35,733 nucleotides of DNA. Source: Candidatus Tritonobacter lacicola (GTDB taxonomy: Bacteria; Auribacterota; Tritonobacteria; Tritonobacterales; Tritonobacteraceae). The translations under genes were made by a program, and so were the position numbers. The notes under the pieces are model-generated. The model ran no database searches and was not told the origin of the DNA. It was given only the letters and a program-made list of their open reading frames with translations. The stretch is taken from assembly GCA_030765135.1 (NCBI GenBank), contig JAVCDC010000124.1:1-35733 (forward strand), in the 5' to 3' direction. Positions 11,567 to 17,013 of this stretch are shown piece by piece (the stretch's first letter is position 1; every line of letters begins with the position of its first letter).

Positions 11567-12994
11567 TCAGCCTCGGGGAGTGCCCGTTCCACCGGAGGAG
11601 AGGTAATTGTCTATATCCTGCGCCGCCCTCTTTCCAGCCCCCATGGCCTCTATCACAGTTGCGGCGCCGGTAACGATGTCGCCGCCCGCCCACACTCCGT
11701 CTTTGGAGGTCCTTCCGGCGTCCGGGTCTGCTATGATGTAGCTCTTCCTGTTCGTCTCAAGGCCTGGCGTGAGGGAGGGAAGAAGGGGGTTGGCCGTGGT
11801 CCCGATGCCGACTATAACGGTGCCCACCTCGATGGTGAACTCGCTGCCATCTATAGGGACCGGGCGTCTTCGCCCGCTTTCGTCGGGTTCCCCCAGCTCC
11901 ATTCTGATGCACTCCGCGGCCCTGACGCGGCCGTCCGGATCCCCGAGGTATCTCGTGGGGGCTGCCAGGAAGTCTATGACGACGCCCTCCTCCACCCCGT
12001 GCTCTATCTCCTCATCCCGCGCCGGCATCTCGGCCCTGGATCTTCTGTAGATGATCCTGACTTCTTCCGCACCCAGCCTGAGGGCGGTCCGTGCCGAGTC
12101 CATCGCCGTGTTCCCCCCGCCGATCACAGCCACCTTTTTGCATACGGGTACCGGTGTGTCGTATTCCGGGAAGAGGTAGCCCTTCATGAGGTTGACCCTG
12201 GTCAGGAACTCGTTTGACGAGAGGATGCCGTTGAGATTTTCGCCGGGTATGCCCATGTATCGCGGCGCTCCTGCCCCGATGCCTATAAAGACGGCCGAGT
12301 ATCCCATGGAGAAGAGTTCGTCCACGGTGTGGTAGCGCCCGACGACCGCGTCGGTGACGAACTCTACTCCCAGCCCGCGCAGGTAATCGACCTCGGCATC
12401 GACTATTTTTTTCGGGAGCCTGAATTCGGGTATGCCGTAGACGAGGACGCCGCCAGGCTTATGGAGGGCCTCGAAGACCGTGACGCCGTACCCCGCCTTC
12501 ACGAGGTCGCCGGCGCATGTCAGTCCGGCCGGCCCGGCCCCCACGACGGCTACCTTCGTACCCTTCCGCACGGGCTTTGCGGGTAGAACCATCTCGCCGC
12601 TTTCACGCTCATAGTCCGCGGCAAATCGCTCCAGTCTGCCGATTGCGACTGGTTCGCCTTTATTGCCGAGGATGCACGCTGTTTCGCACTGGTCCTCCTG
12701 GGGGCAGACCCTTCCGCAGATGGCCGGGAGGCTGTTCGCCTCCTTGAGTTTGCGGGCGCTCTCCACGAAGTGCCCCTCCTCGATGAGGCGTATGAAGGCC
12801 GGGATGTCTATCTCGACGGGGCAGCCCGCGATGCACTTTGGGTCTTTGCACTGGATGCACCTCGAGGCTTCGAGCTTTGCCGTCTCGGGGGAGTAGCCCA
12901 GGGGGACCTCGTCGAAGTTCTTGACCCTGGCGGCGGCGTCCTGCATCGGCATCTCCTGCCGAGGCGGCCTCTTTTTTTTCTTATCCTTTTCCAT
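11567..12994 (-). CDS. gltD: NfnB/GltD-like NADPH-dependent flavoprotein, glutamate synthase small-subunit family
   Basis: 475 aa. Two iron-sulfur cysteine groups lie at the N terminus: Cys46, Cys49, Cys54, Cys58 and Cys93, Cys97, Cys103, Cys107. FAD-binding GAGPAG (152-157), the family signature YGIPEFRLPK and an NADPH-binding GGGNTAMD follow. The family includes the GltD small subunit of glutamate synthase, NfnB of NADH-dependent ferredoxin:NADP+ oxidoreductase and SudA of sulfide dehydrogenase; the stand-alone form (often named gltA or homotetrameric glutamate synthase small subunit) pairs with an NfnA/SudB protein. Such a protein is encoded at 5429-6280, 5.3 kb away on the opposite strand; no glutamate synthase large subunit is present. 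An Nfn-like complex is therefore the best reading. The lysine-rich first ~15 residues are normal for the family. An AT-rich leader with no strong ribosome binding site precedes it. Confidence 0.87.
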   Translation of the reverse strand: MEKDKKKKRPPRQEMPMQDAAARVKNFDEVPLGYSPETAKLEASRCIQCKDPKCIAGCPVEIDIPAFIRLIEEGHFVESARKLKEANSLPAICGRVCPQEDQCETACILGNKGEPVAIGRLERFAADYERESGEMVLPAKPVRKGTKVAVVGAGPAGLTCAGDLVKAGYGVTVFEALHKPGGVLVYGIPEFRLPKKIVDAEVDYLRGLGVEFVTDAVVGRYHTVDELFSMGYSAVFIGIGAGAPRYMGIPGENLNGILSSNEFLTRVNLMKGYLFPEYDTPVPVCKKVAVIGGGNTAMDSARTALRLGAEEVRIIYRRSRAEMPARDEEIEHGVEEGVVIDFLAAPTRYLGDPDGRVRAAECIRMELGEPDESGRRRPVPIDGSEFTIEVGTVIVGIGTTANPLLPSLTPGLETNRKSYIIADPDAGRTSKDGVWAGGDIVTGAATVIEAMGAGKRAAQDIDNYLSSGGTGTPRG

Positions 12995-13145: not shown

Positions 13146-14009
13146 TTAAGGAAGTATGTCAGAGAAAATATTCCGCATGCCGCGTTCGAACAGGACGCCG
13201 ATGACGTAGTCCCTGTATTCGGGCGTGGACCTCACGTCGCCGATGGCCATCGATTCCGACGAGACGCTCTTGGCAGCTTCTTCTATAAGGCTGCCGGAAA
13301 TCTTCCTGCCCTTGAGGAGGGTTTCCGTTTTCGGGCACCTGATTACGGTCGGGGCGACGGCGCCGAGGGCCACCCTCGCTTCTTCTATTTTGCCGTTCGC
13401 AATGTGCAGGACCGCCGCAACGGAGGCCTTGGATATGGCCAGCGCCTTCCTCTGTCCGATCTTCTTGAAGAAGCCCTTGTCTTGCTCCATCATCTTCGGG
13501 AAGCCTATCTCTATTATAAGCTCGTCTTCCTTCAGGACTGTTTTGCCGGGCCCGGTGAAAAAATCCTCCACGGCGACGACTCTACGCCCCTCCTTTCCCA
13601 CTAGCGTGATATGCGCTCCGAGCGCGTAGATGGGAGGTATGCCGTCGGCCGCGGGGGAGGCATTGGCGATGTTTCCACCGATTGTGGCGGCGTTCTGTAT
13701 CTGGGGAGCCCCGATCTCCAGTGCGCCCTGGCGCAGTATGTAGCCGAATCTCTCTATCAGGGGGGAGGAGCCGATATCGGCGTAGCTCGCCAGCGAGCCT
13801 ATGGCAACGGTGCCGTCGGCTTCCCTGATCTCTTTCAGGGACTCGATGAAAGAAAGGTCTATCAGCGCTTCGGGCCGTACGGCGTCCTCCTTCAACTTTA
13901 CGAGGAGGTCGGTACCGCCTGCCAGGAAGGAGGCCTTCTTTCCGAGGCGGGCCTTCATCTCTATCGCCTCTTCGGCGGACTTCGGCCTCAGGTAATCGAA
14001 AGGTCTCAC
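13146..14009 (-). CDS. Molybdenum hydroxylase FAD-binding subunit (xanthine dehydrogenase/CoxM family)
   Basis: 287 aa, the usual size. FAD contacts are AGGTD (residues 30-34) and the ATIGGNIANASPAAD stretch (108-122). This subunit carries electrons from the iron-sulfur subunit to an acceptor such as NAD+. It shows no cysteine-rich loop of the kind found in 4-hydroxybenzoyl-CoA reductase. Its ATG overlaps the stop of the iron-sulfur subunit by 4 nt; it is the last gene of the three-gene operon. A 151-nt AT-rich spacer follows before the NfnB-like gene. Confidence 0.92.
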   Translation of the reverse strand: MRPFDYLRPKSAEEAIEMKARLGKKASFLAGGTDLLVKLKEDAVRPEALIDLSFIESLKEIREADGTVAIGSLASYADIGSSPLIERFGYILRQGALEIGAPQIQNAATIGGNIANASPAADGIPPIYALGAHITLVGKEGRRVVAVEDFFTGPGKTVLKEDELIIEIGFPKMMEQDKGFFKKIGQRKALAISKASVAAVLHIANGKIEEARVALGAVAPTVIRCPKTETLLKGRKISGSLIEEAAKSVSSESMAIGDVRSTPEYRDYVIGVLFERGMRNIFSDILP

Positions 14010-14503
14010 CGTGTCTCTCCTCCGCCCCCGGCATTTTTAAGCTTCTGCGCGGCCGCCCGCACGGCGTTGACTATCTTTGTGTAGCCCGTGCACCGGCACA
14101 GGTTGCCGCTGATGCCGGTTTTTATCTCGTCATCGGTCGGGTCGGGATTCCTGTCCAGGAGGAACTTTGCCGATATAACCATGCCGGGTGTGCAGTATCC
14201 GCACTGGATTGCACCCTCTTCGATAAAAGCCTCCTGGATGGGGTGGAGCTTTCCTTCATTCTCCAGCCCCTCTATGGTCGTGACCTCTTTCCCGTCGACC
14301 TGCGCGGCAAGTACAAGGCAGCTGTTCATGCTCTTGCCGTTTATCAGGACGGCGCACGCGCCGCATTCGCCCTTGTCGCATCCGATCTTCGTGCCGGTGA
14401 GGCCGAGTTCCTTGCGGAGCAGGTGTACGAGCGTCATGTTCGCGGGAACCGTGACTTTCGTTTTAGCTCCGTTCAGCGTGAATTCTATGTTGACCGTCTT
14501 CAT
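14006..14503 (-). CDS. Molybdenum hydroxylase [2Fe-2S] subunit (CoxS/XdhC-type small subunit)
   Basis: 165 aa. Two [2Fe-2S] clusters are evident: the plant-ferredoxin type Cys42, Cys47, Cys50, Cys62 (GCDKGECGAC) and the second, helical type Cys101, Cys104, Cys136, Cys138 (CGYC and CRC). It passes electrons from the molybdenum site to the FAD subunit. Start and stop codons overlap those of both neighbouring subunits by 4 nt, so the three are tightly coupled in the order large, small, FAD. Confidence 0.95.
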   Translation of the reverse strand: MKTVNIEFTLNGAKTKVTVPANMTLVHLLRKELGLTGTKIGCDKGECGACAVLINGKSMNSCLVLAAQVDGKEVTTIEGLENEGKLHPIQEAFIEEGAIQCGYCTPGMVISAKFLLDRNPDPTDDEIKTGISGNLCRCTGYTKIVNAVRAAAQKLKNAGGGGETR

Positions 14504-17013
14504 CGTTTTTCAGCTTTCAGTGCGTTAATGACTTTCTCTGGCGTGATGGGAAGGTCGTTTATCCTTATGCCGGCTGCGTTGTTAACCGCGTTCATGATGG
14601 CGGGTGTTATGGGGACCGTGGGCGCCTCGCCAACGCCCTTGGCGCCGTAGGGCCCGGTCTTCTCGGGGACCTCCACGATTATCGTCTCTATGTCGGGCGC
14701 GTCCACTGCTGTCGGGATAATGTAAGTGGTGAAGTTCGAGGTGAGGACTTGACCTTTCTCCATCTTGAGGTCCTCGTACAGCGCGTAGCCCTGCCCCATA
14801 ACGACGCCGCCCTCGCACTGCCCCTCGACGCCGTGGATGTTTATCGCCTTCCCCATCTCTGGGGCCGATACGGCCCGCAGGACGTCGACCTGTCCCGTCT
14901 TCAGGTCGACGCCGACGAGTGCAACCTGTGTGATGAAGGTGTAGTAGTTGTGGGGAAGGCCGTCGCCGAAGTCCTTGTCGGAGATTGCCATTATGTTTGC
15001 ACCGACGTCCTGGAGGGGCTTGTTCCTCCGGCAGCAGACCTCGGCGATGTTTTCTATCGATACTATCTTTTCCGCGTCCGATTTCGAGCGGACAGCGCCT
15101 TCCTCGTAAACGAGGTTGTTCGGGTCCTCGACCAGGATTGTTGCCGCCTCCAGGATAGCCCTTTTCTTGATCTTGTCGGCACCGTCTATTATTGCGTTCC
15201 CGTTGACGAGAACTGAGCGTGAAGCTGTCACCGATCCCGAGTCCGGGGTCTTGAAGGTGTCGCCGTGTGCGACTTCGATCCTCTCCATGTCGATCTCGAG
15301 CGCCTCGGCAAGCATCTGGGCGTAGGCCGTGATGTTCCCCTGGCCGATTTCGATGGCTCCCGTCTTGAGCACTATTTTGCCGTCGGGGTGAATCTCCAGA
15401 TCGATGTTGGCGAAGTCGGGTATGCCGACTCCCAGGCCGACCGCGTGCCACTCCGACGCCATGCCCACGCCGTGAAGCTTTCCGGGGTGTTTCTTGTTCA
15501 GTTCCCTGATGATTTTTTCCCTGTTTCGCCACAGGTCCGAATTTTCGGCGGCCTCGAGTGTCTCGGTGACGCCTACGCTGGTTTGCATCGTGTGGCCCAG
15601 GGACGATATGTCTCCCAGCTTGAGGGCGTTTCTCTTTCTTATCTCTATTGGGTCGATGCCGAGCTTCCCGGCGAGCTTGGCGATCTCCTGCTCCACTCCC
15701 CAGACCACCTGCGGCGCCCCGAAGCCCCTGAACTCTCCACCGATGGCGTTATTGGTGTAAACCGACCGGCCCTTGAAGTGGCTGTGGGGGTACTGGTAAG
15801 GGCCCGGGGAGGACTCGAGGGCCAGGTTGAGTATCGGTGCCCCGATCGTGTCGTGCGGGCCTGTGTCGGCCGTGACGTCGACGTCTATCGCCGTGAAGCG
15901 CCCGTCCTTCGTGGCCCCGATCTTGAACTTCGTCTTCATGGGGTGGCGCTTGGAGTTGACGATCAGGGTTTCCTCCCTTGTCCACCAGAGCTTGACCGGC
16001 TTTTTCGTGTGGTAAGCGAGAAGAGCCAGGTGGATCTGGACGGTGATCTCGTCTTTGCCGCCGAACGCGCCTCCGGTGGGCGATCCTATGACGCGTATCT
16101 TCCTCGGGTCCCAGTTCATCGCCCGGGCGATCTGGAGCTGGTCCCTGAAAGCGTACTGGCTGCCGCACCATATCGTTAGGATCCCTTCTTCCTCGTCGTA
16201 TATGCCGACACCTCCCGGCGGCTCGATGAATGCGTGATCCATGAACTGCGTGCTGTATTCGCCCTCTGTGATGACGTCGGCTTCTTCGAGCCCCTTCTCC
16301 ACGTCCCCCTTGCGCAGCTCCATAGTGTGCATGATGTTGCCCTTCTCGTGGAGCTGTGGGGCGTCTTCCCGCATGGCCTCCTCCGGGCTCGTCACCACGG
16401 GTAACTCCTCGTACTCGACCTCGATCAGCTCGCACGCTCTCTCCGCGGTCTCCTCGTCGACGGCGGCGACGAGGGCGATTGCATCCCCCATGTACATGAC
16501 TCTGTCCCTGCAAAGTACGGGCCAGTTGGGGGTGATGATTCCGAATCCGTTGTGGCCGGGAATATCGTCGGCGGTTAGGACCGCCTCGACGCCCGGGAGT
16601 TTACGGGCTTTTTCCACATCGAGCTTGAGAATATTCGCGTGGGGATACTCGCTCCTCTTTACCTTTGCCCACAGCATCCCGGGAAAGGAGAGGTCTGTTG
16701 AATATTTCGTCCTTCCCGTTACCTTGTCCCTGGCGTCTATGCGGGGAACCGGCTTGCCGACGTACCGGTAGAGCTTTTCCGCACCGCCGCCGATGGGCTG
16801 GAATATGTCCATGCGGTCACCGTCCTGCAGGTGGCGGTCGAACTTGACGCGTATGTTGTTGACGAGGACCATTGCGTAGCTCAGGTCGCGGTCGTTGAGT
16901 CCCAGTGACCTGAGGGCTTGGGCGACGGTCCCGCCGTTATCGAGGGAGATTCTATCGTCGTCCTTCGGGGCGTATTTTTTGAACTCCCCGTATAGTTTTA
17001 CGCCGATTTCCAT
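14500..17013 (-). CDS. Molybdenum hydroxylase large subunit with N-terminal MoaD/ThiS-like domain
   Basis: 837 aa. Residues 1-77 form a MoaD-like ubiquitin fold candidate (starts MEIGVKLYGEFKKYAP, ends LQDGDRMDIFQPIGGG), the place where free MoaD normally ends in Gly-Gly. From residue ~79 (EKLYRYVGKPVPRIDARDKVTG) the chain is a full xanthine dehydrogenase-type molybdopterin-binding subunit: GGAFGGKDE, the loop GGEFRGFGAPQ, EGGVVMGQGYALYE, and active-site Glu796 in GAKGVGEAP. The FRGFGAPQ loop is of the xanthine/aldehyde/aromatic hydroxylase type, not the carbon monoxide dehydrogenase type with VAYRCSFR. Substrate unknown. No in-frame start lies at the domain junction, so the fusion appears to be one polypeptide. 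The stop overlaps the small-subunit start. No molybdenum cofactor chaperone gene lies next to it. Confidence 0.9.
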   Translation of the reverse strand: MEIGVKLYGEFKKYAPKDDDRISLDNGGTVAQALRSLGLNDRDLSYAMVLVNNIRVKFDRHLQDGDRMDIFQPIGGGAEKLYRYVGKPVPRIDARDKVTGRTKYSTDLSFPGMLWAKVKRSEYPHANILKLDVEKARKLPGVEAVLTADDIPGHNGFGIITPNWPVLCRDRVMYMGDAIALVAAVDEETAERACELIEVEYEELPVVTSPEEAMREDAPQLHEKGNIMHTMELRKGDVEKGLEEADVITEGEYSTQFMDHAFIEPPGGVGIYDEEEGILTIWCGSQYAFRDQLQIARAMNWDPRKIRVIGSPTGGAFGGKDEITVQIHLALLAYHTKKPVKLWWTREETLIVNSKRHPMKTKFKIGATKDGRFTAIDVDVTADTGPHDTIGAPILNLALESSPGPYQYPHSHFKGRSVYTNNAIGGEFRGFGAPQVVWGVEQEIAKLAGKLGIDPIEIRKRNALKLGDISSLGHTMQTSVGVTETLEAAENSDLWRNREKIIRELNKKHPGKLHGVGMASEWHAVGLGVGIPDFANIDLEIHPDGKIVLKTGAIEIGQGNITAYAQMLAEALEIDMERIEVAHGDTFKTPDSGSVTASRSVLVNGNAIIDGADKIKKRAILEAATILVEDPNNLVYEEGAVRSKSDAEKIVSIENIAEVCCRRNKPLQDVGANIMAISDKDFGDGLPHNYYTFITQVALVGVDLKTGQVDVLRAVSAPEMGKAINIHGVEGQCEGGVVMGQGYALYEDLKMEKGQVLTSNFTTYIIPTAVDAPDIETIIVEVPEKTGPYGAKGVGEAPTVPITPAIMNAVNNAAGIRINDLPITPEKVINALKAEKR

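Follow-up and report, generated by a model that had tools for sequence, protein, structure and literature searches.

MoaD and ThiS are small proteins that normally ferry sulfur for the making of molybdenum enzymes, and in carriers of this family a free C-terminal Gly-Gly undergoes adenylation and thiocarboxylation. XdhC is a known maturation factor of enzymes of the xanthine dehydrogenase (XDH) family; to our knowledge, a dedicated ubiquitin-like carrier for that family has not been described. In MoaX of Mycobacterium tuberculosis (PMC4326299) and DrMoaD-MoaE of Deinococcus radiodurans (PMC8832034), an N-terminal MoaD with internal glycines is followed directly by its partner, MoaE, the sulfur-receiving synthase subunit, and neither protein functions until it is cleaved behind the glycines. 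In MoaX, the essential cut falls at Gly82-Ser83 (PMC4326299); DrMoaD-MoaE is cut by DrJAMM, which leaves a C-terminal Gly (PMC8832034). In 2006, Iyer et al. suggested that JAB peptidases set fused ThiS/MoaD free (PMC1779556). In the Azoarcus MoaD-AOR and ThiS-sulfite reductase fusions, the ThiS/MoaD domain serves or neighbors the cofactor pathway of the redox enzyme to which it is joined, and it sits at the C terminus, where its glycines can stay free (PMC1779556). MoaD-like genes also lie beside genes for aldehyde ferredoxin oxidoreductases (PMC1779556, PMC2948915, PMC11323500). A survey of domain fusions in molybdoproteins, published in 2018, has no ThiS/MoaD entry among the XO-family fusions that it lists as new (Table 4, PMC6147048), and a search of the open-access literature (most subscription papers being outside its coverage) found no report of a molybdenum hydroxylase with an N-terminal carrier.

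The stretch of DNA analyzed here (the window, 35,733 nt, from Candidatus Tritonobacter lacicola, an uncultured bacterium of the phylum Auribacterota) encodes, in one frame, a MoaD/ThiS domain fused to the large subunit of a molybdenum hydroxylase (Table 1). As in MoaX and DrMoaD-MoaE, a MoaD domain, its glycines, and a partner share one chain, but the partner here is XdhA, i.e., the hydroxylase itself, and MoaE is undetectable in the genome. Like the MoaD-AOR and ThiS-sulfite reductase fusions, the protein joins a carrier to a redox enzyme; here, however, the carrier is N-terminal and the glycines are internal. The locus also recalls the carriers that adjoin genes for Mo/W enzymes, and carrier-AOR pairs occur elsewhere in the same genome (contig C134, possibly C106). 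In contrast with those, the enzyme here belongs to the XDH family, and the unfused relatives have XdhC and MocA-like neighbors. Residues 82 to 837 are an ordinary large subunit like those of 3HRD and 1RM6, with FeS and FAD subunits encoded downstream; unlike in the solved members of the family, an N-terminal carrier domain is present.

Table 1. Features of the fused gene and its downstream neighbors (window coordinates)
Feature	Coordinates	Strand	Basis or remark
Fused ThiS-XdhA gene	14500-17013	minus	One open frame, ATG start, 837 aa
MoaD/ThiS beta-grasp domain, residues 1-77	16783..17013	minus	Pfam ThiS, predicted fold, Foldseek, identity to free carriers
Internal Gly75-Gly76-Gly77	16783..16791	minus	Codons GGC GGC GGT
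Linker Ala-Glu-Lys-Leu, 4 residues, between GGG and conserved YRYVGK of the large subunit	16771..16782	minus	Codons, alignment, low model confidence
XdhA-like molybdopterin-binding large subunit, xanthine-dehydrogenase family, residues 78-837	14500..16782	minus	Pfam, PDB sequence and fold matches
[2Fe-2S] small subunit	14006..14503	minus	Pfam Fer2 and Fer2_2; start shares 4 nt with the end of the fused gene
FAD-binding medium subunit	13146..14009	minus	Pfam FAD_binding_5 and CO_deh_flav_C
GltD-type NAD(P)/FAD oxidoreductase	11567..12994	minus	Pfam Fer4_20 and Pyr_redox_2; NCBIfam TIGR01316 above cutoff

Residues 5 to 77 match Pfam ThiS (PF02597) over profile positions 1 to 76 of 76 with 38.9 bits (curated cutoff, 22.5) and an E value of 1.3e-9 for the full protein or 2.5e-11 for residues 1 to 77 alone. 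AlphaFold predicted a ubiquitin-like beta-grasp fold for residues 1 to 81 (29 relatives; pLDDT 89), and the best PDB matches of this model in Foldseek were SAMP1 (E, 1.4e-6) and Escherichia coli MoaD (E, 1.5e-5). By sequence, the top PDB match was the Pyrococcus MoaD-like protein 1VJK (E, 1.5e-4). Leu62 and Gly76-Gly77, which are invariant columns in a 30-sequence alignment, are kept in the fused domain, and the domain is 45 to 48% identical to the free carriers of related genomes. Given the Pfam score, the predicted fold with its Foldseek matches, and the retained invariant columns, the MoaD/ThiS match is judged to be far beyond chance. The GGG of the encoded chain is internal rather than a free C-terminal Gly-Gly, and the comparisons place the domain in the carrier family without making it a demonstrated carrier. 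Thiamine ThiS was set aside, as no thiamine gene was recognized beside the fused gene or the orthologous carriers.

At the junction, the codons GGC GGC GGT / GCG GAA AAG CTC TAC carry GGG into XdhA with no start codon (junction peptide, FQPIGGGAEKLYRYVGK). The next in-frame start codon past residue 77 is at residue 113, within the hammerhead domain, so a separate XdhA start is impossible without the loss of conserved sequence. The sequence-only reading of this locus, which had called a MoaD-like domain on a hydroxylase large subunit, an internal GGG, and a junction without a start codon, was right in all three, and the absence of a MoaD/ThiS fold, which would have spoken against it, was not what structure prediction returned. 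In the model of residues 1 to 81, residues 79 to 81 have pLDDT values below 50. When the full-length chain was modeled from aligned large subunits, XdhA came out well, but the carrier domain was unreliable and the domain packing was not confident; residues 52 to 78 and most of residues 1 to 78 fell below a pLDDT of 50, owing to the lack of a paired alignment for the carrier. A joint alignment of carrier and large subunit placed carriers inside XdhA and was left unused for structure prediction. The low model confidence at the junction would be compatible with an exposed, flexible link.

After ThiS, the fused protein matches Ald_Xan_dh_C (residues 99 to 205), MoCoBD_1 (222 to 463), and MoCoBD_2 (494 to 773), the XDH-type architecture of a hammerhead and two MoCo-binding domains. 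The closest PDB entry to the large subunit by sequence was nicotinate dehydrogenase (3HRD), the closest fold was 4-hydroxybenzoyl-CoA reductase (1RM6; TM score of 0.84 by query length), and the column of the active-site-type Glu796 was conserved in the alignment. None of the NCBIfam equivalog cutoffs for hydroxylase substrate was reached, the best being pucD with 650.4 of 783.65 bits. Upstream of the fused gene lie nadA, panC, and panB. The GltD-type gene sits downstream of the hydroxylase genes, after a gap, and the operon of the relatives also holds a GltD/YgfK-like gene; from its position, it is possible that the GltD-type oxidoreductase is the electron partner of the hydroxylase. Assignment to the selenium-dependent molybdenum hydroxylases was rejected, as YqeB (TIGR03309) was not found in the genome of the window (G000); it was found only in a relative, G013.

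We searched 384 genomes, none of them apart from G000 being of its family, with a ThiS-subfamily profile. A carrier in a frame of XdhA length was present in one of the 384, namely, G000 itself, and no second ThiS-XdhA fusion was found. Contig scans gave no confirmed relative with the whole fused protein and six loci, none of them fused, with the ThiS alignment; in the phylum of G091, the wider search took in a single genome. Of the two things that the sequence-only reading had proposed to look for in relatives, the fusion itself and separate carrier genes, it is the second that appeared: in 14 relatives from two phyla, the gene directly upstream of xdhA encodes a carrier. In the five of the same class (G001 to G005), a separate carrier gene ending in FQPVGGG and a stop immediately precedes the corresponding xdhA; the operon has the order upp-MocA-XdhC-ThiS-XdhA-FeS-FAD (full order read in G004). 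In the other nine, which belong to family f263 of a second phylum, the order is XdhC-FAD-ThiS-XdhA, with a carrier ending in APIGGG and a stop just before xdhA, and in G409 a MocA-like gene stands in front of this operon. Carrier tails in relatives read FQPVGGG, FQPIGGG, or APIGGG before the stop, and all close relatives have GGG-stop. In G416, another of the nine (contig C90, L165:2699-2941), carrier and xdhA are in frame with only TGA ACT between the carrier and the ATG of xdhA; this genome is one stop codon short of the same fusion, in another phylum.

The nearest XdhA copies, 58 to 65% identical to that of the window, belong to family f9 (G013, G028, and G031), whose carriers are located away from xdhA and adjoin an E1-type adenylyltransferase; the cluster of the orthologous free carrier in G013 contains NifU, MOSC, YqeB, XdhC, E1, and ThiS. 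A different small MoaD-like protein, in an f2 genome (G004:C45, L101:880-2014, minus strand), adjoins an N-terminally extended type of E1 such as pairs with the f9 carrier. In the XdhA tree, the proteins of all these genomes that correspond to the window XdhA formed one clade (support, 100/99) within which the window protein grouped with f9 (100/100), and the other XdhA-like proteins of G000, which are without ThiS, fell outside that clade. In the carrier tree (75 columns), the fused domain and the f9 carriers fell together with only moderate support (85/83), in agreement with the XdhA tree. From the neighboring genes in relatives, carrier and XdhA very probably belong together; the pair is old and likely functional, and the pairing suggests that the carrier serves the XdhA hydroxylase. 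Because a separate carrier ending in GGG-stop lies upstream of the same xdhA clade, and because the two G416 genes are in frame across TGA ACT only, the comparison indicates that the fusion is the loss of a stop codon and spacer between dedicated operon partners. It is a late event, of a kind from which G416 is a single stop codon away.

Candidate genes for carrier processing and enzyme maturation are found elsewhere in G000. On contig C51, the gene for a MoeB-type E1 has those for XdhC and a MocA-like protein nearby. Contig C39 encodes a stand-alone JAMM peptidase of 132 aa (HSHPGLQPFPSARD; HSHP...PSARD motif), related to PDB JAMM1 and of the type that processes MoaD fusions; its gene (L100:7130-7528, minus strand) is unlinked to the fused gene and has a bioB-like gene just downstream (the two within L100:6045-7528, minus strand). 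At least three other MoaD-like carriers are encoded on contigs C134 and C106; they are of different lineages from the fused domain, and, read by eye, most adjoin aldehyde ferredoxin oxidoreductase genes. One carrier on C134 (L035:10799-11116, plus strand) has a 14-residue tail after its Gly-Gly (AGG-CEIGFCCLPTREGF) and is a candidate for C-terminal processing. On contig C33, the gene for an E1-like protein (586 aa) overlaps a JAB-domain gene (173 aa) beside restriction-modification-like genes (L099:5290-7544, minus strand), a pair that resembles E2/E1/JAB defense-type operons.

By analogy, the most probable mode of action of the fused chain is that of the MoaD-MoaE fusions, with a cut after GGG. 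We give about an even chance to the full proposal that a dedicated carrier was fused to its enzyme by loss of stop and spacer, that the chain is cut after Gly77, and that the carrier supplies sulfur for the hydroxylase cofactor. A peptidase, plausibly the stand-alone JAMM protein, would cut after Gly77, freeing a carrier with a C-terminal GGG and a normal XdhA starting AEKLYRYVGK and so restoring two products as in relatives. The MoeB-type E1 would then adenylate and thiocarboxylate the freed carrier, which would give sulfur for maturation of the hydroxylase cofactor together with XdhC and MocA; the sulfur delivered might be that of the dithiolene or the terminal sulfido ligand. In favor of cleavage, the fused copy retains both GGG and the FQP tail (FQPIGGG), and JAMM peptidase, E1, XdhC, and MocA-like protein are all encoded in the genome. 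On the other side, the unlinked C39 JAMM protein may serve another carrier, e.g., the tailed one at C134:10799-11116; the retained GGG could simply reflect a recent fusion; the fused carrier may not be needed, as there are other free MoaD-like carriers; no second fused genome was found; and, with MoaE undetectable, the sulfur acceptor lacks a candidate.

Several of these points would suit a chain that stays uncut, with the beta-grasp domain as a tethered docking or assembly module for XdhC, a sulfurase, or another maturation factor and no longer a thiocarboxylate donor. The partner gene is conserved beside xdhA and xdhC, which makes an interaction with XdhA or XdhC plausible; other free carriers exist; the JAMM gene is unlinked; and the linker is just four residues. 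However, the FQPIGGG tail, which a docking role does not need, is fully kept, MoaD-MoaE fusions left uncut were inactive in the cases tested (PMC4326299, PMC8832034), and the full-length model, lacking a paired carrier alignment, shows no confident packing of the domain against XdhA. We regard a tethered module as tentative and on the unlikely side. What could be docked is narrowed by the missing MoaE (PF02391), which was not found in the fused protein, G000, or ten relatives and was detected in 1 of 44 Auribacterota genomes (not in the other 43, G000 included). Docking of molybdopterin synthase, which the sequence-only reading had offered alongside cleavage and docking of a sulfuration factor, is therefore disfavored for the canonical enzyme, and docking of a sulfuration factor (XdhC) is possible. 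MoaC is present in G000 (G000:C145:82960-83358) and in 9 of the 11 genomes tested. Acetogens, too, have been reported to lack MoaE (PMC5039349), so the gap is not peculiar to Auribacterota, a phylum in which Mo/W enzymes and MoaD-like carriers are present despite the near-absence of detectable MoaE.

Rather more doubtful is that the attached carrier acts in cis, so that this XDH-family enzyme, in a phylum largely without MoaE, would have its own ubiquitin-like maturation domain and sulfur transfer or recruitment of a sulfuration factor would take place on the enzyme and not via free MoaD. An idle leftover, in which the stop was lost recently, other MoaD-like proteins do the job of the carrier, and XdhA tolerates the extra domain, would fit a fusion that occurs once in a genome with at least three other carriers. 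We consider it improbable, since the fused domain keeps the conserved positions of its subfamily and the other carriers are of different lineages, mostly adjoining genes for aldehyde ferredoxin oxidoreductases. An artifact at the junction, by frameshift or misassembly, raised earlier as grounds for splitting the gene, is unlikely: although the fusion is known from one MAG of 148 contigs with no same-family relative in the comparison set, and 6 of 192 single-base edits across 24 nt would give an overlapping carrier (ending GGGA or GGGAE) and an xdhA from an overlapping GTG, all six are insertions at a few specific positions, no deletion or substitution among the 192 yields a valid pair, the resulting carrier would end in GGGA or longer where every close relative ends in GGG, and GC3 is uniform across the junction (0.78 versus 0.79).

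The pairing of these genes in two phyla, once in fused form, connects one particular MoaD/ThiS-type carrier with one particular clade of molybdenum hydroxylases. For a phylum that has MoaC but in which MoaE is nearly always missing, it suggests a place to look for the sulfur transfer in cofactor synthesis.
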